DNA from: a virus
Reading direction: 5' to 3' (one strand)
IMG/VR virus record: IMGVR_UViG_3300033984_000108
Span: 1-29,825 of that record
Length of the DNA stretch: 29,825 nt
In this document: piece by piece, positions 271 through 9,645 of the stretch
Position numbering within the stretch: position 1 is the stretch's first letter
Layout: each line of letters starts with the position of its first letter
Made by a program: the position numbers and the translations under genes
The notes under the pieces: generated by a model
What the model saw: only the letters and a program-made list of their open reading frames with translations
Told to the model about the DNA's origin: nothing
The model's database searches: none

Positions 271-1386
271 ATGAGTATTTTTTCAAAGTATAATGATGAG
301 ATTTTAGAATTATTAGGAAAGGGTTTAAGCAATCGAGAAATAGCACGTCAAATTTCGCCTGATAAAGTTTCAGGAATTAGAAAACATATTGCAAAACTAA
401 AAGACAATACAGGTATTTTAAACGCTTGTAATAGCGTAGGAGTTGACCCTAAAACCGTTCCGATGTTATGGCTAAAAAACAAAAACGAATCGGTAAGAGT
501 TACCAATCCACTATTTGAGAAAGCAGAAGAAAAACAATTTCAAGACCTTACAACAACTTTAATAAAAGATTTACAAGAATACGCTCCTAATTTTGTAAAG
601 TTAGAACGAATTGAAAACAAAGATTCTTATTTATTAGTTTTAGACCCTGCAGACATACACATCGGTAAGCTATCAAAACATTTTGAAACTGGAGAAGATT
701 ATAACAATCAAATTGCAGTACATAGAGTTTTAGCAGGAGTAAAAGGTATTTTACAAAAGGTTAGTTCTTTTAATATTGATAAGATTTTGTTTATCGGTGG
801 TAACGATATTTTACACATTGACAATCCAAAAAGAACAACTACAAGCGGTACACCACAAGACACCGATGGTATGTGGTTCGAAAACTTTATAATAGCTAAA
901 AATCTTTATATTGATGTTTTAGAAATATTACTACCTATTGCAGACGTTCATTTTTGTTTTAATCCTTCAAATCACGATTATACAAACGGATTCTTTTTAG
1001 CTCAGGTTATTGAAACTTATTTTAAGAATTGTCAAAATATTACTTTTGATACTTCGATAGCACACCGCAAAGGTTTTAGGTATTATAATAACCTTATTGG
1101 AACTACTCACGGTGATGGAGCAAAACAAGAACTATTACCTTTATTAATGGCTCAGGAGTTCCCTATTGAATGGAGTTTAACAAAACACCGTTATGTATAT
1201 ACGCACCACGTACACCACAAAACAAGTAAAGACTATGTAGGTATTACAGTTGAATCTTTAAGAAGTCCTTCGAGTGCTGACAGTTGGCATCACAGACAAG
1301 GATATCAGCATTCCGTAAAAGCTCTTGAAGGTTTTTTGCACTGCAAAAATAACGGTCAAATCGCCAGGATTACGCATATTTTTTAG
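271..1386 (+). CDS. Calcineurin-like metallophosphoesterase with N-terminal helix-turn-helix
   Basis: This 371-residue protein has a small N-terminal helix-turn-helix (about residues 7-30, GLSNREIARQIS) and a C-terminal metallophosphoesterase domain. The metal-binding motifs of that superfamily appear in order: DIH (128-130), GGND (176-179), SNHD (233-236), HGD (280-282) and the HxH cluster THHVHH (311-316). The fold hydrolyses phosphomonoesters or phosphodiesters with two metal ions. The DNA-binding-like N-terminus suggests a nucleic-acid substrate, but that is inference. The gene stands alone between two terminators, with no recognisable TAnnTTTG promoter in the 60 bases upstream, so its expression signal is unclear. 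The start at 271 is the first ATG after the upstream terminator. The fold call is firm; the biological role is not. Confidence 0.8.
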   Translation: MSIFSKYNDEILELLGKGLSNREIARQISPDKVSGIRKHIAKLKDNTGILNACNSVGVDPKTVPMLWLKNKNESVRVTNPLFEKAEEKQFQDLTTTLIKDLQEYAPNFVKLERIENKDSYLLVLDPADIHIGKLSKHFETGEDYNNQIAVHRVLAGVKGILQKVSSFNIDKILFIGGNDILHIDNPKRTTTSGTPQDTDGMWFENFIIAKNLYIDVLEILLPIADVHFCFNPSNHDYTNGFFLAQVIETYFKNCQNITFDTSIAHRKGFRYYNNLIGTTHGDGAKQELLPLLMAQEFPIEWSLTKHRYVYTHHVHHKTSKDYVGITVESLRSPSSADSWHHRQGYQHSVKALEGFLHCKNNGQIARITHIF

Positions 1387-1407
1387 TATATTTACATGTT
1401 TTGTTTT

Positions 1408-1436
1408 AGCCGCTGATGAAAATTAGCGGTTTTTTT
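1408..1436 (+). terminator. Intrinsic terminator after metallophosphoesterase
   Basis: CCGCTGAT (1410-1417) pairs with ATTAGCGG (1422-1429), with one G-T wobble and a GAAA loop, then seven T. Its sequence resembles the terminator at the end of the window (29803-29825), which also has the form AGCCG...TTAGCGGTTT. Confidence 0.85.
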
Positions 1437-1441
1437 ATATC

Positions 1442-1476
1442 TTTTTGTTATTTATTCAAAAAAAGTATTATATTTG
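1442..1476 (+). promoter_or_regulatory. Bacteroidetes-type promoter for leader RNA 1 and primase-helicase
   Basis: TATATTTG at 1469-1476 matches the Bacteroidetes -7 element TAnnTTTG. A TTTTTG with TTG at 1445-1447 lies 21 bases upstream and fits the -33 element. The predicted transcription start is around 1480, exactly where the first hairpin of the leader begins. Confidence 0.75.
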
Positions 1477-1480
1477 TAGC

Positions 1481-1570
1481 TGTGTTATTGGTGGAGCATT
1501 AATACAATTAAAGAAATTTTTTAGAAGCCTTATAGTGCGGGACTCCACTCCCAATCTATAGGGCATTTTT
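1481..1570 (+). ncRNA. Structured leader RNA with predicted kissing loops (copy 1)
   Basis: Hairpin 1 pairs TGTGTTA (1481-1487) with TAATACA (1500-1506) and exposes GGTGGAG (1490-1496) in its loop. A 20-base A/T-rich linker follows. Hairpin 2 pairs GCCTTATAG (1527-1535) with CTATAGGGC (1556-1564); inside it GGGA (1539-1542) pairs with TCCC (1549-1552), leaving the loop CTCCAC (1543-1548). That loop is the reverse complement of GTGGAG in loop 1, and a G-T pair extends the match to 7. A T-rich tail (1566-1576, one interruption) follows, as in an intrinsic terminator. The primase-helicase ATG is 16 bases after the stem. The structure is read by eye. The same geometry recurs at 5759-5841 with different sequence. 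Confidence 0.65.
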
Positions 1571-1580
1571 ATTTTATATT

Positions 1581-3821
1581 ATGGAAAAACACTTTGTTAA
1601 AAAAATAGTTGAAAAAGGATTTTCAATTATACCAGTCAATGATGACAAAACACCAAAAGGATCATGGAAGCGAAACCAAACATCACCCTACTCAATTAAT
1701 GAAATTGATGCTATTGATTCAAATACATGGGCAATTATTACAGGATACAATGATCTGGAAATTATTGATTTTGATTTAAAAGTATTAAGCACGTTAAAAG
1801 AGCAAAATGAATTATGGGCCGAAATATTAAAATTCCTAAAAGATAATATTGATGACTTTGATAAAAAATTTAGTATTTACAAAACTAAAAACAAAGGATA
1901 TCATATTTTATACCGTTGCAATGTTATAGAAGGAAATACAAAAATAGCAAAACTAAAAGGTCATAAAGAGGCAATAATTGAAACACGTGGTAAATTTGGT
2001 TATGCTATTTTATATGATGACTGCATAAGTCAAAATAATTATGCAAATATTCAAGAAATTAGTGAAGAGGATCGTTTTATACTTTGGTCATGTTTAAAAA
2101 CATATAATTATGTTGAAGATTTACCGATTGAGCCTAAAAAAGAAAAACACGAATATCAAGAAACAGAAATAACATGCTGGGATGACTATAACAATAAAAC
2201 AGATATTTTTGACGTTATTGGATCAGATTTTACTATTGTAGCAAATCACACAAAAAAGTACATTATTAAAAGACATGGATCTGCATCACCACATTCTGGT
2301 TATATTTACAAAGAAGATAACAGGATGTTTCTTTTTAGCACAGGAACAATTTATCCACACGAAAAACAAATTACACCATTTATTGCTTACTGTTGGAAAT
2401 ATCATAATGGTAATTTATCTGAAGGAGCAAAAGATTTATATCAAAAGGGATTTGGATCACGTTTAAAATCTAAATTAAAAGAATTAAAAGAAGAAATACA
2501 AATTCATCCAGTAATTAATAAAGATCATTTAGTATTTCCGATTGATATATTTCCAAAAGATATACAAAACTATATTTTAGAATGTAACCAAAAACTTGAT
2601 AGTTCTATTGAATATATGGGTTGCTCAATGTTATGGCTTATTTCTGTATGCATTGGTAATTCTATTGATGTTGAGGTTAAAAGGGGCTGGAATGAAAATT
2701 TATCAATTTGGTTGTCTATTGTTGGTAAGGCTGGATTAGGTAAAACGCCAAGTATATCAAATATTATATTTCCACTATTAAAGATTAACGCAAAAGAAAT
2801 TAAAAAATACATTAAGGAAAACGAAAAATTTGAATATTATGATTCATTATCTAAAAAAGAAAAAGAAGAACACAGCGAAGTTCAAAAACCTATTAAAACT
2901 CAATTTGTTGCTAATGATATCACTTTGGAGGCATTGGTGGATTTACATCAAGAAAGTGATAACGCAGTAGGTGTTTTTAAGGATGAGCTTGCTGGATGGC
3001 TTAAAGACATGAATAAATATAGGGAAGGTTCTGATCTTGAATTTTGGTTAAGTAGTTGGAGTGGTAAAAGTGTAAATTTAAACAGAAAAACGGCTAAAAG
3101 TGCATTTGTTGAAAAACCATTTATACCAGTTTTAGGTGGCATTCAGCCTAGTATTTTTAACAGTTTTTATACAGAAGAAAACAAAGACAATGGATTTATG
3201 GATAGAATGTTATTGTGTTATCCAGATCTTAAAATTGATTATTATAACGAAAATGAAATTTCTGAAAATATACTAAATTGGTATAAAGAAACAATTATTT
3301 CTTTTTATGATACTTTAAAAGGAATTATTAAACGTGATGAAGATGGCGAAATTATTTCGCTTACTGCTAAATTTTCAGATGACGCAAAGATTGAATGGAA
3401 GCGAATGTTTAATGAAATGACAAGCGTTCAAAATGATGAGGAAGAAAATGAATACTTAAAAAGCATGTATCCAAAACAAAAATCATACATTCCACGCTTC
3501 GCTTGTTTAATACACGTTTTTAACGACTTTTTTAATGATGGTGGTAATTCTCTATTAATTTCAAAAGAAAGTATCTTAAAAGCCGAAAAATTGAGTAAAT
3601 ATTTCATTGCAACAGCTAAAAAGATAAAAATTAATTCTGCTGAAGTATCTAAGCTAAAAAGTACAATTGTATTGAATAAAGGTAAAAATGAAAAAGAAAA
3701 ACTTTATGAAGTATGGAAGGAAAATAAAAAATTCAATAGAAGTGAAACTGCTGAATTATTAGGAATAAGTAGAAGAAGTACACAGAATTGGATTAAAGAG
3801 TTTGAAAGTGCGCAAAAATAG
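1581..3821 (+). CDS. Primase-helicase: Prim-Pol domain, DUF3987-type ATPase, C-terminal HTH
   Basis: This is a 746-residue replication protein. Residues 1-170 resemble the bifunctional primase-polymerase (Prim-Pol) fold: GFSIIPV near the start, the acidic pair in IIDFDLK (D63, D65) and KGYHILYR (H108), matching the catalytic DxD and the conserved histidine. Residues 320-650 resemble the DUF3987 ATPase, with Walker A GKAGLGKT (382-389) and a Walker B-like VFKDELAG (466-472). Residues 710-743 form a helix-turn-helix (ETAELLGISRRSTQNWIKEF). The protein would make primers and unwind DNA at the phage origin. It lies downstream of a promoter and structured leader, and its last codons already contain the first TGCGCA motif of the candidate origin. 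The start at 1581 is the first ATG after the leader. Confidence 0.85.
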   Translation: MEKHFVKKIVEKGFSIIPVNDDKTPKGSWKRNQTSPYSINEIDAIDSNTWAIITGYNDLEIIDFDLKVLSTLKEQNELWAEILKFLKDNIDDFDKKFSIYKTKNKGYHILYRCNVIEGNTKIAKLKGHKEAIIETRGKFGYAILYDDCISQNNYANIQEISEEDRFILWSCLKTYNYVEDLPIEPKKEKHEYQETEITCWDDYNNKTDIFDVIGSDFTIVANHTKKYIIKRHGSASPHSGYIYKEDNRMFLFSTGTIYPHEKQITPFIAYCWKYHNGNLSEGAKDLYQKGFGSRLKSKLKELKEEIQIHPVINKDHLVFPIDIFPKDIQNYILECNQKLDSSIEYMGCSMLWLISVCIGNSIDVEVKRGWNENLSIWLSIVGKAGLGKTPSISNIIFPLLKINAKEIKKYIKENEKFEYYDSLSKKEKEEHSEVQKPIKTQFVANDITLEALVDLHQESDNAVGVFKDELAGWLKDMNKYREGSDLEFWLSSWSGKSVNLNRKTAKSAFVEKPFIPVLGGIQPSIFNSFYTEENKDNGFMDRMLLCYPDLKIDYYNENEISENILNWYKETIISFYDTLKGIIKRDEDGEIISLTAKFSDDAKIEWKRMFNEMTSVQNDEEENEYLKSMYPKQKSYIPRFACLIHVFNDFFNDGGNSLLISKESILKAEKLSKYFIATAKKIKINSAEVSKLKSTIVLNKGKNEKEKLYEVWKENKKFNRSETAELLGISRRSTQNWIKEFESAQK

Positions 3822-4065
3822 TGCGCAAATGTAAACTGCGCAAAACAACTTTGCGCAGTAAAAAGTCAATAAAATCAATACTTAACAAATGAAAGTGCGC
3901 AAAATGCACAGTTTACATTAAGTAAAATAAAAAAAATAAAAATAAAAAAAATAAAATATTTACTGCGCAAGTGCGCAAATGCACAGTTAACACTTGTAAA
4001 GCCTTATAAACATTGATAATCTACTGCGCAAAAGGTGCGCAAAACCACTGCGCAAATAGTGCGCA
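3809..4065. repeat. Cluster of eleven TGCGCA motifs, candidate replication origin or operator array
   Basis: The 6-bp palindrome TGCGCA occurs at 3809, 3822, 3837, 3852, 3896, 3964, 3972, 4025, 4036, 4049 and 4060 (start positions), most often followed by AA. Many copies are 8-15 bases apart. Two longer units also recur: GCGCAAAATGCACAGTTTAC near 3897 and GCGCAAATGCACAGTTAACA near 3973. The first copy lies inside the 3' end of the primase-helicase gene. The remaining copies fill the gap before the helicase gene, which holds no credible gene. Clustered short repeats plus an A/T tract beside replication genes are typical of iteron-type origins. A regulator-binding operator for the helicase operon is the alternative. 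Confidence 0.7.
3917..3962. other. A/T-only tract inside the TGCGCA cluster, candidate unwinding element
   Basis: These 46 bases contain a single G (3922) and no C, with long A runs on the + strand. The tract separates the left group of five TGCGCA motifs from the right group of six. Such a tract is what a DNA unwinding element of an origin would look like, but the genome is AT-rich overall, so this is inference from position. Confidence 0.45.
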
Positions 4066-4081
4066 TTTAAAAATATAAAAC

Positions 4082-5311
4082 ATGGAATTAAGAAATTACC
4101 AAATAGAACTTTCAAACAAAGGATCTGAAATATTAAAAAGAAAAGGATTAGTTTATTACAATTTTAGTCCCAGAGTAGGTAAAACATTAACAGCCTTACA
4201 AACGTGCCAGAATGTTAATGCAAAGGATGTTTTATTTATCACAAAAATAAAAGCCTTTAAAAGCATACAGGATGACTTTAATGCTGCTGGATATATTTTT
4301 AATCTAACAATAATAAACAAAGAATCAATTCACAAAATAGAACACAATAATTTTGATGTTATTATTTATGATGAGGCACACGGTTTATTTTCAACCTATC
4401 CAAAGCCTAATAACTTTTATAAAATTGCAAAATCAAGGTTTTCTAAAATACCAGCTATTCTTTTAAGCGGTACAATGTGCGTTGAATCTGGATCACAAAT
4501 TTATCACCAGTTTAATTTTAGCGATTATAGTCCGTTTAAACATTATATAAATTTTTATAGATGGGCCAAAGATTACGTAAAAGTAACACAGAAGCAATTA
4601 GGGTATGGTTTAATAAATGATTATAGTAAATGCAATATAGTAGCAGTTAATAAAATTATAGAGCCTTACACGCTTAAATTTACTCAAGAACAAAGCGGTT
4701 TTGTTTCAAAGGTTAATAAACATGTTTTAAATTTTCCTATTAGCAATAAATTTTTAATTGATAGGTTAAAACGTGATAATTTAATTGAAGGAAAAGACGA
4801 GTTAATAATTGCAGATTCAGGTGTGAAACTTATGCAAAAGATACACCAGATAGAAAATGGAACAATTATTTTTGAATCTGGCAATAATAAAATTTTAGAT
4901 TATTCAAAAGGTGAATTTATCAAAGATTATTTTAAAGGTAAAAAAATAGCTATAATATACAATTTTAAAAATGAATTGACTTTATTACAGGATGTTTTTA
5001 AGGACCAATGCACAATAGATTTAAATGAATTTAATAATACTGATAAACATTATTTAGGGCAACAGGTTAGTTCGTGCGAAGGTATATCGTTATCTAAAGC
5101 AGATTGTTTAGTGTTTTATAATTTTGGTTATTCAGGTAAAAATTTTATACAAGCTATTGACAGATTAACTTTAAAAGATAGGCCAACAAATGATGTTTAT
5201 TTTATATTTGGTAAAGGATCATTAACAGAGGCTATTTATAAAACTGTAAGTAAAAAAGAAAAATTTAATATAAAACAATTCAATGAATACAGAGCAACAA
5301 ATTCAAAGTAA
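4082..5311 (+). CDS. SF2 (DEAD/DEAH-type) DNA helicase
   Basis: This 409-residue protein has superfamily 2 helicase motifs in order: a Q-motif-like RNYQIEL (4-10), a Walker A variant SPRVGKT (29-35, with Pro-Arg-Val in place of the usual Gly-x-Gly), DEAH at 97-100, motif III SGT (129-131) and a motif VI-like QAIDRLTLKDR (357-367). It is compact for a helicase of this group and resembles phage SNF2-like or UvsW-like helicases of replication modules. The likely role is unwinding or branch migration during phage replication or recombination. It follows the TGCGCA cluster, and its 3' end overlaps the VRR-NUC gene by 29 bases, so the two are probably co-translated. Confidence 0.8.
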   Translation: MELRNYQIELSNKGSEILKRKGLVYYNFSPRVGKTLTALQTCQNVNAKDVLFITKIKAFKSIQDDFNAAGYIFNLTIINKESIHKIEHNNFDVIIYDEAHGLFSTYPKPNNFYKIAKSRFSKIPAILLSGTMCVESGSQIYHQFNFSDYSPFKHYINFYRWAKDYVKVTQKQLGYGLINDYSKCNIVAVNKIIEPYTLKFTQEQSGFVSKVNKHVLNFPISNKFLIDRLKRDNLIEGKDELIIADSGVKLMQKIHQIENGTIIFESGNNKILDYSKGEFIKDYFKGKKIAIIYNFKNELTLLQDVFKDQCTIDLNEFNNTDKHYLGQQVSSCEGISLSKADCLVFYNFGYSGKNFIQAIDRLTLKDRPTNDVYFIFGKGSLTEAIYKTVSKKEKFNIKQFNEYRATNSK

Positions 5312-5567
5312 AATAAAAAAATACGCTGAAGGCAAAGGTTGGATTGTAATTAAAACAATTAAATTATCTGAGGCTGGTTTTCCAGATTTATTTATGTTTA
5401 AAGATGGAAAAACTATTTTTATAGAAGTAAAGAAAGTAGGCGGTGTTGTTTCACCATTACAGGAATTAAGGCGCAAACAATTAATGCAACAAGGTTTTGT
5501 TTGTGAAATTATTTATAGTTTAGAACAATTTAAAAATGAAATTAGCCGAAAAGATAGAATTATTTAA
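5283..5567 (+). CDS. VRR-NUC domain nuclease
   Basis: This 94-residue protein is a stand-alone VRR-NUC domain of the PD-(D/E)xK nuclease superfamily. The catalytic signature is GFPDLF (D35) followed by IFIEVKK (E48, K50), and the SPLQ segment (57-60) is typical of the family. Phage VRR-NUC proteins are compact Holliday-junction or flap nucleases encoded beside helicases, which fits the overlap with the upstream SF2 helicase gene. The start ATG lies inside the helicase 3' end in another frame, and the domain is complete from this start. Confidence 0.85.
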   Translation: MNTEQQIQSKIKKYAEGKGWIVIKTIKLSEAGFPDLFMFKDGKTIFIEVKKVGGVVSPLQELRRKQLMQQGFVCEIIYSLEQFKNEISRKDRII

Positions 5568-5739
5568 AAAAAATAATCCTGAAAGATTAGAACATACCTT
5601 TAAAAATGGTTTAATATTCAAAGGAAGCGGAAATTATAAGTTACATTGGTGGCTTGATAGCCTTTATAAAGATGCTGTAAATGAGTGGAAATTTAATAAA
5701 ACCACTAATAATGTAGATTTTTTAAATAAAATATTATAA
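5536..5739 (+). CDS. Small protein of unknown function
   Basis: This 67-residue protein has no domain I recognise. It begins with a charged helix (MKLAEKIELFKKNNPERLE) and has an aromatic centre (KLHWWLDSLY). Its start lies 32 bases inside the VRR-NUC gene in a different frame, as is usual for tightly packed phage operons. It is the last gene before the promoter and leader at 5748, so it closes the replication operon. No terminator hairpin is visible immediately after it, so transcription may continue into the leader RNA. Confidence 0.6.
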   Translation: MKLAEKIELFKKNNPERLEHTFKNGLIFKGSGNYKLHWWLDSLYKDAVNEWKFNKTTNNVDFLNKIL

Positions 5740-5747
5740 TATTTTTG

Positions 5748-5755
5748 TATCTTTG
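5748..5755 (+). promoter_or_regulatory. TAnnTTTG promoter element for leader RNA 2
   Basis: TATCTTTG matches the -7 consensus, and the overlapping TATTTTTG (5740-5747) also matches. No clear -33 TTG is seen at the proper distance. As in copy 1, the leader's first hairpin starts 3-4 bases after the element, where transcription should begin. Confidence 0.55.
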
Positions 5756-5758
5756 TAT

Positions 5759-5841
5759 TTATAGTCTGGTCGCTATAATTAACAACATTATTTAATTCCT
5801 ACGGATGATAAGACGACCAGCTTTGATTCCGTAGGTTTTTT
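5759..5841 (+). ncRNA. Structured leader RNA with predicted kissing loops (copy 2)
   Basis: Hairpin 1 pairs TTATAG (5759-5764) with CTATAA (5773-5778), with the 8-base loop TCTGGTCG. A 19-base A/T-rich linker follows. Hairpin 2 pairs CCTACGGA (5798-5805) with TCCGTAGG (5828-5835), and an inner AAG/CTT helix (5810-5812 with 5821-5823) presents CGACCAG (5814-5820). That loop is a perfect 7-base reverse complement of CTGGTCG in loop 1. TTTTTT follows directly. The endonuclease ATG is 11 bases after the stem. Hairpin 2 spans 38 bases in both copies, and the complementary loop starts at the same offset (+16) in both. Confidence 0.65.
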
Positions 5842-5846
5842 ATTTT

Positions 5847-6449
5847 ATGGTAGGAATATACAAAATTACATCACCAACAAAAAAAGTTTATATTGGTCAA
5901 AGTATTGATATTGAAAAAAGGTTTAAAAATTATGAAGGACTAAATTGTAAAAGGCAACCTGCAATTTATAATTCATTTTTAAAATATGGAGTTAATAAGC
6001 ATAAATTTGAAATAATTTGTGAATGTGATATTTTAGAATTAAACGATAAGGAAAGATATTATCAAGACGTTTTTAGTGCAACTGGTAAAAATGGATTAAA
6101 TTGTAGTTTGACAAAAACAAATGATAGAAATGGCAGTCATTCTGAAGAAACTAAATTAAAAATAGGATTAGGAAATAAAGGAAAATTTGTTTCTGAAGAA
6201 ACAAGACAAAAAATGAGTAATACAAGGACTGGAATAAAACATAATTTAGGTAGAAAACATTCTAAAGAAACAAAAATAAAAATTAGCGAAGCTAATATGA
6301 ATAATGGAATATTAACTTTAAATATTGAAACAGGTATTTATTATGTAACATTGAAAGAAGCTGCTGAAAGCATTAATATAAAACAAACTAAATTACGTAT
6401 GCATTTAAAAGGTTATATAAAAAATACAACTTCACTTATTTATGTTTAA
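5847..6449 (+). CDS. GIY-YIG homing endonuclease with NUMOD repeats
   Basis: This 200-residue protein has a GIY-YIG nuclease domain in residues 1-90: GIY (3-5), YIG (15-17), the catalytic-type arginine in EKRF (R25), a conserved Glu in NDKERYYQ (E69) and GLNCS (83-87). It is followed by three NUMOD3-like DNA-binding motifs (about 97-112, 116-131 and 136-151) built on SxETKxKI and GRKHSKETK. The C-terminus (about 156-200) resembles a NUMOD1-type helix-turn-helix (TLKEAAESINI). Such free-standing endonucleases spread by cutting genomes that lack them. No intron is visible around it. It sits between the replication operon and the small-gene operon behind its own promoter and structured leader, as expected for a selfish insertion under tight control. 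Confidence 0.85.
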   Translation: MVGIYKITSPTKKVYIGQSIDIEKRFKNYEGLNCKRQPAIYNSFLKYGVNKHKFEIICECDILELNDKERYYQDVFSATGKNGLNCSLTKTNDRNGSHSEETKLKIGLGNKGKFVSEETRQKMSNTRTGIKHNLGRKHSKETKIKISEANMNNGILTLNIETGIYYVTLKEAAESINIKQTKLRMHLKGYIKNTTSLIYV

Positions 6450-6466
6450 AAAAAAAACGATTTTCT

Positions 6467-6497
6467 TTTGCGTAATTAAAAACTATTACTATATTTG
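6467..6497 (+). promoter_or_regulatory. Strong Bacteroidetes promoter for the small-gene operon
   Basis: TTTG (6467-6470), a 19-base spacer and TATATTTG (6490-6497) form the best full match to the Bacteroidetes -33/-7 promoter in the window. Predicted start is near 6501, giving an unstructured A-rich leader of about 29 bases before the ATG at 6530. Confidence 0.8.
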
Positions 6498-6529
6498 TAC
6501 TCAGATAACAACAATAAAACACAAATATT

Positions 6530-6691
6530 ATGAAAGCAATTAACTCTTTAGAATTAGTAAAATTAGAATTAATAACAATGTTTAATAATGGAATTACATT
6601 AACAAACATAAAAAGACATTTATTAAACAATGGATGTTCTGAAGTATTAGCAAATAAACTTATAAGAATAACAGAAATAGAAGTAAAATAA
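6530..6691 (+). CDS. Small protein, possible helix-turn-helix
   Basis: This is a 53-residue protein, first in the small-gene operon and placed about 29 bases after the predicted transcription start. It is mostly helical (NSLELVKLELITMFNNG, then TLTNIKRHLLNNG), and the second part could be a helix-turn-helix. The stretch NGCSEVLANKLI resembles NGASKEVSKLFANKII of the next gene, so the two may be distantly related. No function is recognised. Confidence 0.6.
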   Translation: MKAINSLELVKLELITMFNNGITLTNIKRHLLNNGCSEVLANKLIRITEIEVK

Positions 6692-7456: not shown

Positions 7457-7933
7457 ATGGATTTACAAGAGATAAAGAATTTGTTTGGAATAGACCTAAC
7501 AATTAAGAATAGAAAGCCACATTTTGTTTATTTACGAGGTATTTATATGGATCAGGAAATTGAAAAAGGCAAAAATAATTTAAACATTTGCAAAGAATTA
7601 AAATGCAATCACGCTACAGGGTTTCACTACTTCCAACGTAAAGAAATGTATAAAAACATTAAAGAGTATAATGATGTTAAAATAGCTTTTGATAATAAAG
7701 ATGCTGAATTGTTTAAAGATATTGATTTTAGACTCAATAACGTTAAGTACATTCATTATCGAGAAATGGAACGTAAAAAGCCTAAAAAAATAAATATTGA
7801 TGAGATGCCAAAGGTAAGATGGCATTATTTGAAAATAATTGAAACTTTACGCAAAGATAATAGGCACAAGTTATGGGATAAACCGATGAAGGAATTTACA
7901 ATTAATGATTATAAAATTTTAGAATCTTTATAA
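7457..7933 (+). CDS. Protein with DnaA domain-IV-like DNA-binding signature
   Basis: This is a 158-residue basic protein. Residues 20-62 resemble the DnaA C-terminal domain. KP at 20-21 aligns with the RP start of that domain. ICKELKC (44-50) aligns with the first recognition helix, and NHATGFHYFQR (51-61) aligns with the DnaA signature DHTTVLHACRK. The rest (about 80-158) is unlike DnaA, and there is no ATPase domain. It could bind DnaA-box-like sites in phage or host DNA to control replication or transcription. The match is by eye and the similarity is partial, so the fold assignment needs a profile search. It sits two bases after a family A gene in the small-gene operon. Confidence 0.5.
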   Translation: MDLQEIKNLFGIDLTIKNRKPHFVYLRGIYMDQEIEKGKNNLNICKELKCNHATGFHYFQRKEMYKNIKEYNDVKIAFDNKDAELFKDIDFRLNNVKYIHYREMERKKPKKINIDEMPKVRWHYLKIIETLRKDNRHKLWDKPMKEFTINDYKILESL

Positions 7934-7986
7934 ATACTCGTTTTAACGGCAATTAACACCGTAATAACTTAAAATTTTAAATAATT

Positions 7987-8127
7987 ATGGCAAATAAAAG
8001 AAATATAAAACCGTTAACTCAAAGGTTATCGATTTATGAGCAGGAATATAAATTGAAAGAACAAGCAAAAGAACTATTAAAAAAAATAAAAGAAGATGCC
8101 AGATATAACAATGTGTCAAGGAACTAA
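7987..8127 (+). CDS. 46-residue basic protein of unknown function
   Basis: The protein runs from MANKRNIKPLTQRLSIYEQE to KKIKEDARYNNVSRN, very basic with one long predicted helix. It starts 53 bases after the previous stop, and that gap has only a weak ACGG/CCGT hairpin. Its 3' end overlaps the next gene by 32 bases in another frame. No family is recognised; a nucleic-acid or host-protein binding role is possible but unsupported. Confidence 0.5.
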   Translation: MANKRNIKPLTQRLSIYEQEYKLKEQAKELLKKIKEDARYNNVSRN

Positions 8128-9031: not shown

Positions 9032-9222
9032 AAAAATTAATATTGATTTTAGCAGTTGTTGGAATGACAAGCTGCTCAAAAAATTGTGATGACTTAGAAG
9101 ATGCGGCTTATAAACAATATCAAGACGCTGTTTTTAGATGTGGAGGTAGTTCAGCTTGTAGGATTGAAATAAAAAGGCAATATGACGATAAGATAAAACG
9201 AATAAGAGAAAATTGTAATTAA
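9028..9222 (+). CDS. Small lipoprotein
   Basis: This is a 64-residue precursor. Residues 1-15 form a type II signal peptide (MKKLILILAVVGMTS), and C16 is the lipid-modified cysteine. The mature protein begins CSKNCDDLEDA. Its acidic cluster just after the cysteine resembles the lipoprotein surface-export signals described in Bacteroidetes, so it may reach the cell surface. Two more cysteines (C38, C44) could form a disulfide; the rest is a charged helix. Phage lipoproteins commonly mask or block receptors to prevent superinfection, or block DNA injection. That role is inferred here from the signal alone. It is the last gene before the late promoter at 9228. Confidence 0.75.
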   Translation: MKKLILILAVVGMTSCSKNCDDLEDAAYKQYQDAVFRCGGSSACRIEIKRQYDDKIKRIRENCN

Positions 9223-9227
9223 TTTTG

Positions 9228-9235
9228 TAACTTTG
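9228..9235 (+). promoter_or_regulatory. TAnnTTTG promoter for the packaging and head operon
   Basis: TAACTTTG matches the -7 element. Only five bases separate it from the terminase small subunit ATG (9241), so the predicted start falls on or next to the ATG and the mRNA would be nearly leaderless. No clear -33 TTG is present. Confidence 0.65.
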
Positions 9236-9240
9236 TATTT

Positions 9241-9645
9241 ATGGCACGACCAAGTGAATATAGTTTTGATTTGTCAAAAGAGATATGTAATGAAATAGCA
9301 TTAGGTAATAATATCATACGTATATTAGAATCTGATGCAAAGTATCCAAACTGGACAACATTCAGACGGTGGAAAAATAATAACGATGAATTACGCACAC
9401 TGTATGTGAGCAGCCAACAGGATAAAGCGTTAGCATTGGAAAATGAAATTGATGACTTAAGAGATATGTTAATCACTAAAGAAATTGAATACCCTGTTTA
9501 TAACGCTTTAGTTAATACTTTAAAATGGAAAATGGCTAAAATGTATCCTAAAGTGTTTGGTGATAAAACAGATGTAACGTCGGGGGGTGAGAAAATACAA
9601 AATACAACCTTACAAATCGAAATAATCAAACCAAGTGAGGATTAA
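9241..9645 (+). CDS. terS: Terminase small subunit
   Basis: This 134-residue protein has an N-terminal helix-turn-helix region (about 8-45, IALGNNIIRILESDA then NWTTFRRW), a central helical oligomerisation region and the segment WKMAKMYPKVFGDKTDV (about 98-114), typical of Sf6-like small terminase subunits. It recognises the phage packaging site and delivers DNA to the large subunit. It is directly upstream of the large subunit gene and overlaps it by 11 bases, the normal order. The start at 9241 is adjacent to the promoter. Confidence 0.85.
   Translation: MARPSEYSFDLSKEICNEIALGNNIIRILESDAKYPNWTTFRRWKNNNDELRTLYVSSQQDKALALENEIDDLRDMLITKEIEYPVYNALVNTLKWKMAKMYPKVFGDKTDVTSGGEKIQNTTLQIEIIKPSED

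Follow-up and report, generated by a model that had tools for sequence, protein, structure and literature searches.

Leader RNAs of the window

The window, meaning the whole stretch of DNA analysed here, is a virus record of 29.8 kb in which a replication region lies upstream of a terminase, capsid and tail region. Nearly all phage records that match its DNA are Flavobacterium phages. Two structured elements lie on the plus strand immediately 5′ of genes, leader 1 at 1469-1578 and leader 2 at 5748-5846.

Read directly from the sequence, leader 2 has the order TATCTTTG-tat-TTATAG(tCTGGTCG)CTATAA-linker-CCTACGGA(tgatAAGaCGACCAGCTTtgat)TCCGTAGG-TTTTTTATTTT-ATG. It opens with a Bacteroidetes-type -7 promoter box, TATCTTTG (5748-5755), whose form TAnnTTTG is the family-wide anchor. 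Hairpin H1 (5759-5778) pairs TTATAG at 5759-5764 with CTATAA at 5773-5778 around an 8-nt loop, and this loop holds the first kissing arm, CTGGTCG (5766-5772). An A/U-rich single-stranded linker (5779-5797), which across the family is A-rich and then U-rich, leads into the 38-nt hairpin H2 (5798-5835). The lower stem of H2 joins CCTACGGA at 5798-5805 to TCCGTAGG at 5828-5835, and an inner stem joins AAG at 5810-5812 to CTT at 5821-5823. The second kissing arm, CGACCAG (5814-5820), is a perfect 7-base complement of CTGGTCG. Folding and covariation support H1 and both stems of H2, while the kissing arms are supported by the sequence, the structural descriptor given below and covariation in a 9-sequence alignment. 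The leader ends in a U-rich, terminator-like tract, TTTTTTATTTT (5836-5846), which agrees with the U enrichment seen family-wide. Directly after it, with its ATG at 5847, stands a gene assigned by Pfam to a free-standing GIY-YIG/NUMOD3 homing endonuclease of 200 aa (5847-6449, plus strand). Elsewhere in the window, a promoter-like stretch at 9209-9242, TAACTTTGTATTTATG, matches that of leader 2 at 85% over 34 nt; it sits 5′ of the ORF preceding the terminase and lacks the leader hairpins.

Leader 1 has the same order of elements upstream of a DUF3987 gene. Its -7 box, TATATTTG (1469-1476), has TTTG at 1444-1447, 21 nt upstream. The fold places H1 at 1481-1506 and the 38-nt H2, GCCTTATAG/CTATAGGGC, at 1527-1564 with an inner stem of 1539-1542 with 1549-1552. 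The descriptor assigns the kissing arms to GTGGAG at 1491-1496 and CTCCAC at 1543-1548. The U-rich tract ATTTTTATTTTAT (1565-1577) is followed by the plus-strand DUF3987 gene (1581-3821, ATG at 1581), which encodes a primase/helicase-like protein of 746 aa (Pfam PF13148, E 6e-56). Just 5′ of the leader 1 promoter, at 1408-1431, lies an ordinary intrinsic terminator, AGCCGCTGATGAAAATTAGCGGTT-TTTTT, which makes a useful internal comparison for H2. Between the DUF3987 and helicase genes, at 3803-4065, are many repeats containing TGCGCA, such as TGAAAGTGCGCAAAA, with five copies at 78% or more; these repeats are iteron-like and form a candidate replication origin.

A first-pass annotation of this DNA had described both elements, and direct reading of the sequence finds them as it said, with H2 lengths of 38 nt each and ATG spacings of 11 nt (leader 2) and 16 nt (leader 1). 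The loop pairing that it proposed is a perfect 7-mer in leader 2, whereas the GGTGGAG/CTCCACT pairing given for leader 1 comprises six Watson-Crick pairs and one G.U rather than seven full matches. Compared with dinucleotide shuffles in RNA folding, the two leaders have z values of about -2.5 over the whole leader and about -3 over H2. An initial version of the descriptor, which had no promoter term, ranked both of them top in the window, over several low-quality matches.

Anatomy across the family

The shared layout consists of TAnnTTTG, H1, an A/U-rich linker, an H2 that pairs with the H1 loop over 6-9 bp, a U-rich tract and a start codon. Among 58 nonredundant leaders, H1 mostly starts 0-9 nt past TAnnTTTG, with a mode of 4, which for Bacteroidetes promoters is presumably close to +1. 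These 58 leaders contain 52 distinct kissing words, and in most of them the word abuts the 3′ side of the H1 loop. The linker is A-rich and then U-rich throughout. Two types can be told apart by its length: the short-linker type, which includes both window copies, has an inner stem in H2, while in the long-linker type the linker often has a small hairpin of its own and the kissing loop caps H2 directly. Rod length and linker length showed no correlation in a geometric test based on an approximate parse.

The region 3′ of H2 is strongly biased. T makes up 55-79% at each of the eight positions past H2, after which A dominates, and an upstream U-rich stretch is found at 74% of leader genes versus 18% of other genes. 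In the whole-collection scan, which set no tail criterion, all 32 distinct leaders have at least five T in 8 nt at the 3′ end of H2. At four loci (L186, L192, L206 and L208) the base of the stem is GC-rich and runs into T7. An A-tract often lies 5′ of the H2 stem. The U-run of the long-linker type is often interrupted (TTTTCTC, TTTTGTC). From H2 to the ATG the gap is mostly 11-25 nt, reaching about 46 nt in hattifnatt9-1 (hattifnatt/morran). Downstream of H2 and ahead of the start codon, Flavobacterium and Cellulophaga phages share about 36 nt of conserved sequence (GGTAATCTT..AAACC; L168:14450-14487 and L179:1350-1381), possibly an extra small hairpin or a regulatory site.

Evidence for a conserved fold

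The descriptor combines TAnnTTTG, H1, linker, H2, loop-loop complementarity and a U-rich tail, and it was run on about 160 related viral loci gathered by protein homology to both downstream genes of the window. In its promoter-anchored, filtered form it gave 87 matches, every one in sense orientation, and dinucleotide shuffles of these loci gave none, so that the layout does occur in other genomes, as the earlier annotation had proposed to check. A non-circular test parsed the regions upstream of DUF3987 and GIY-YIG homologues by stems only, with no kissing term. In this parse, 24 of 25 nonredundant leaders (96%) have loop-loop complementarity of at least 6 bp, compared with 7.2% when loops are swapped.

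Covariation was assessed in an alignment of nine sequences (A4) with the pseudoknot written in. All cells of its kissing helix are paired, and six of the seven pairs have changed on both sides. Over the whole structure, there are 42 two-sided changes where 11.7 are expected, a value found in 0 of 500 shuffles; none of the whole-structure measures was reached by the 500 shuffles or by slid versions of the structure. Compensatory change is also seen between closely related cultured Baltic phages, with GTGAGACG/CGTCTCAC in hattifnatt9-1 and GTGGAACG/CGTTCCAC in mumin6-1 and snusmum9-1.

Scans of 2.9 million viral contigs extended the family beyond the collected loci. The pattern TATATTTG-N3..16-GTGGAAG-N25..55-CTTCCAC matched 45 contigs, versus one when the partner word was permuted, and that lone control match is not a leader. 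Except for two, the newly retrieved matches could be parsed as complete leaders. A second word pair, GTGACAG/CTGTCAC, absent from the earlier set, was scanned as a prediction set before looking; it matched two contigs versus none for its control, and both are full leaders, one of them immediately 5′ of a primase-like gene. The pairing-maximising parse inflates per-pair percentages, and the fair tests are the descriptor against shuffles, the swapped loops, A4 and the whole-collection scans. Together these bear out, across dozens of phages, the real structural constraint with covarying loops that was first suspected from two copies. By these comparisons, the leader fold is near certain, and both window copies belong to a large, apparently undescribed family of phage leader RNAs.

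Genomic context and spread

Searching 99 sources with a covariance model turned up 64 leaders, every one of them on the sense strand. Among 73 DUF3987 loci, 53 carry a leader no more than 1.2 kb upstream of the gene; in 34 the distance is at most 22 nt, and the more distant leaders are mostly separated from the gene by one or more small ORFs. This distance and the intervening ORFs indicate that the leader belongs to the beginning of a transcription unit and not to one particular gene.

The replication genes downstream encode DUF3987 and other primase/helicases, replication-initiation and primosomal proteins, and DEAD helicases. An AAA_24 ATPase, a DNA methylase and nucleases of the GIY-YIG, NUMOD4-HNH and T5orf172 types are also found. 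Replication functions predominate among the downstream genes; homing endonucleases, the gene type that the initial description named after leader 2, carry the leader too, but it is not specific to them. In the collected set, leaders were never found ahead of structural genes. Because most loci were collected by way of two protein families, the gene list is biased, the pattern scans aside.

Some leaders before different genes are close to one another. The L098 leader (5897-6001), before a GIY-YIG gene, is close to window leader 1, before DUF3987, and the L095 leader (7885-7998), before GIY-YIG, is close to the L044 leader (7878-7995), before DUF3987. Such near-identical leaders suggest that leaders and homing endonucleases recombine at their boundary. 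At about 6020-6168 of L030, the sequence immediately 5′ of DUF3987 resembles the end of a GIY-YIG gene, and here an endonuclease appears, by this resemblance, to adjoin the replication gene directly upstream.

Cultured phages with a leader include hattifnatt9-1 (three), 11b, FCOV-F35 and V186 (two each), and a leader is found at weaker scores in FL-1 and Cellulophaga phi10:1. Spread into bacterial genomes was considered and set aside: 100 relatives of one Bacteroidota MAG gave no R1 match, a weak result given the unclear makeup of that set.

Proposed function and alternative explanations

Sequence comparison establishes the promoter motif, H1, H2, the loop-loop helix, the U-tract, the position before the first gene and the replication-gene context; the exact start site, actual termination, the regulation of read-through and the direction of the kissing effect are predictions built on these elements. 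With a likelihood somewhat short of even, the family is tentatively read as a promoter-proximal transcription attenuator, in which H2 resembles an intrinsic terminator and the kissing of H1 probably sets read-through. Such leaders would control phage replication transcription units of the early or middle class. Transcription would start at H1 from the Bacteroidetes-type promoter and give an RNA with a base-paired 5′ end. As H2 emerges, its loop would pair with the H1 loop into a compact rod closed by the linker. RNA polymerase would halt part of the time at H2 and its U-tract, freeing a stable RNA about 80 nt long, and the remaining polymerases would read into the gene, with the H1-H2 kissing probably setting or timing this read-through.

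The leaders have the stable stem followed by a U-tract that characterises intrinsic terminators. Their H2 loops are larger than those of typical terminators, and a terminator pattern scan of window 1300-6600, covering loops of 3-8 nt, flagged neither window H2. The short spacing from H2 to the ATG is also compatible with a translational role, a point against attenuation. Pairing of H1 or the linker with either H2 arm or the tail shows no excess, and a classical attenuator with a mutually exclusive antiterminator was rejected on this ground. Leader-peptide attenuation had been suggested by an ATG-to-TAG mini-ORF in H2 of leader 2; this ORF is not conserved, and ATG-to-stop leader-peptide ORFs are depleted, occurring in 28% of leaders versus 39% of shuffles. 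Neither antiterminator pairing nor leader-ORF enrichment is present, and hence the classical attenuation switches are absent; the likely control point would then be the kissing itself, or a protein or RNA-polymerase modification that recognises the fold.

A more speculative extension, to which a low probability is given, is that, as in plasmid copy-number control, the kissing-hairpin leaders gate replication genes through read-through of the promoter-proximal terminator, and that released leader RNAs with private loop codes feed back on nascent leaders of their own type. If true, this would be a copy-number-like control in phages that ties replication gene expression to template number, and the loop codes would give related or co-infecting phages separate regulatory identities. 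The broader suggestion of the first-pass annotation, that the loops cross-regulate other RNAs, is not borne out by their matches: loops match their own partner, and 1 of 48 same-contig cross-combinations reaches at least 6 bp, no more than between contigs. Since cross-pairing within a contig is no different from that between genomes, there is no clear avoidance of cross-pairing either.

Other readings are rated less likely than the attenuator. A leader acting on mRNA stability, translation or both is unlikely, if still to be taken seriously; with little or no termination, H1 and the kissing lock would shield the 5′ end, and H2 with its spacer would present the start codon. The placement of H1, about 0-9 nt and most often 4 nt after TAnnTTTG, fits this reading, since a start so near should leave the mRNA 5′ end paired, and so do the H2-ATG gap of mostly 11-25 nt and the U-rich, then A-rich spacer. 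A U-tract right after the stem, sometimes T7 on a GC-rich base, is instead what a terminator requires, while the gap of up to about 46 nt in hattifnatt/morran and the marking of an operon start instead of a single gene also speak against it. Less likely still is a cis-acting antiterminator of the put type, whose nascent fold would bind RNA polymerase and override the H2 U-tract and then later terminators. It draws on the two promoter-proximal hairpins that open phage replication transcripts, a layout known from HK022 put, on variable leader sequence with constrained structure and on the family-wide A-rich linker, but no Rfam family matched and neither a terminator-like second hairpin nor kissing loops are known for HK022 put, which counts against it.

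Hairpins that seal both ends, a promoter of its own and a terminator-like end would suit a small-RNA gene whose terminated RNA is the product and acts in trans on host or phage targets while the downstream gene lives on read-through. This is improbable: the loops vary from copy to copy almost without exception (52 distinct words among 58 leaders), which leaves no common seed for trans targets, and the leader always lies just 5′ of a same-strand gene. An antisense RNA encoded in cis and directed at the leader would fit the kissing hairpins and the replication genes downstream, as in plasmid rep leaders (PMC10724649, PMC8383071), but such control is very improbable, as antisense TAnnTTTG occurs at 0.64-0.89 per kb in or after the leader versus about 1 per kb farther downstream, with no enrichment in a scan confined to promoters of this type. 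Chance, or an ordinary promoter beside an unrelated terminator, has a negligible probability. AT-rich genomes do yield many weak hairpins (3424 loose matches), but the contrasts of 87 with 0, 96% with 7% and 45 with 1, and the 0 of 500 shuffles, refute it through the shuffle, swapped-loop and permuted-word controls.

Novelty and significance

The first annotation knew no named RNA family with this layout, and no Rfam family matches it: cmscan against Rfam 15 at the gathering cut-off gave no match in the window or in 13 related loci, and at lax E-values, beyond these, sub-threshold matches only. The leaders were not found in the open-access literature searched, and an earlier account in subscription papers or preprints is possible. 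They are rated as a new family within a familiar kind of RNA, the structured cis-regulatory leader.

The family is widespread and opens replication transcription units of Bacteroidetes phages, in which little is known of how gene expression is controlled. Because the loop-loop helix that underlies the fold is almost free in sequence, the family offers dozens of natural kissing-loop variants, a clean set for RNA structure work and for orthogonal switches in Flavobacteriia. Because cultured phages carry the leader, including F. columnare phage FCOV-F35, Flavobacterium phages V186, hattifnatt9-1 and 11b, and Cellulophaga phage phi10:1, the timing of replication genes is directly testable.

Comparison with known systems

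The put RNA of phage HK022 mediates antitermination by RNA only; it is phage-borne and promoter-proximal, has two hairpins, and depends on structure over sequence. The leaders resemble it in layout, being phage-borne and promoter-proximal with two hairpins in the nascent transcript. Unlike put, their loops kiss, their second hairpin has a U-tract, many of them directly precede replication genes, and their hosts belong to another phylum.

The c4 antisense RNA and the P4 CI RNA are two-hairpin phage RNAs with covarying loop complementarity, which pair with a separate target stretch. The leaders share the two hairpins and the covarying loops, but in them two loops of one RNA pair with each other, and cmscan gives no Rfam match. 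With an intrinsic terminator, they share a stem followed by a U-rich tract, often with an A-tract 5′ of the stem. They differ in that the large apical region of H2 is engaged in a 6-9 bp loop-loop helix with a hairpin upstream, and in that they stand before a gene rather than after it.

In IncI-alpha, IncB and IncK plasmids, rep leaders (repZ) are controlled by a pseudoknot formed through long-range loop pairing, and an antisense RNA competes for that loop, translation being the step that is switched (PMC10724649, PMC8383071). Like the repZ leader, the phage leaders precede replication genes and have long-range loop pairing 5′ of the start site; unlike it, they have no antisense promoter signal and carry a U-tract after the second hairpin. 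The same papers cite pT181-type plasmids for countertranscript transcription attenuators. The phage leaders resemble this type in placing a terminator, here the terminator-like H2, in a replication-gene leader, and differ in showing neither an antisense RNA signal nor an alternative antiterminator helix. The association of a loop-paired leader with replication genes is a notable parallel between these phages and plasmid rep leaders.
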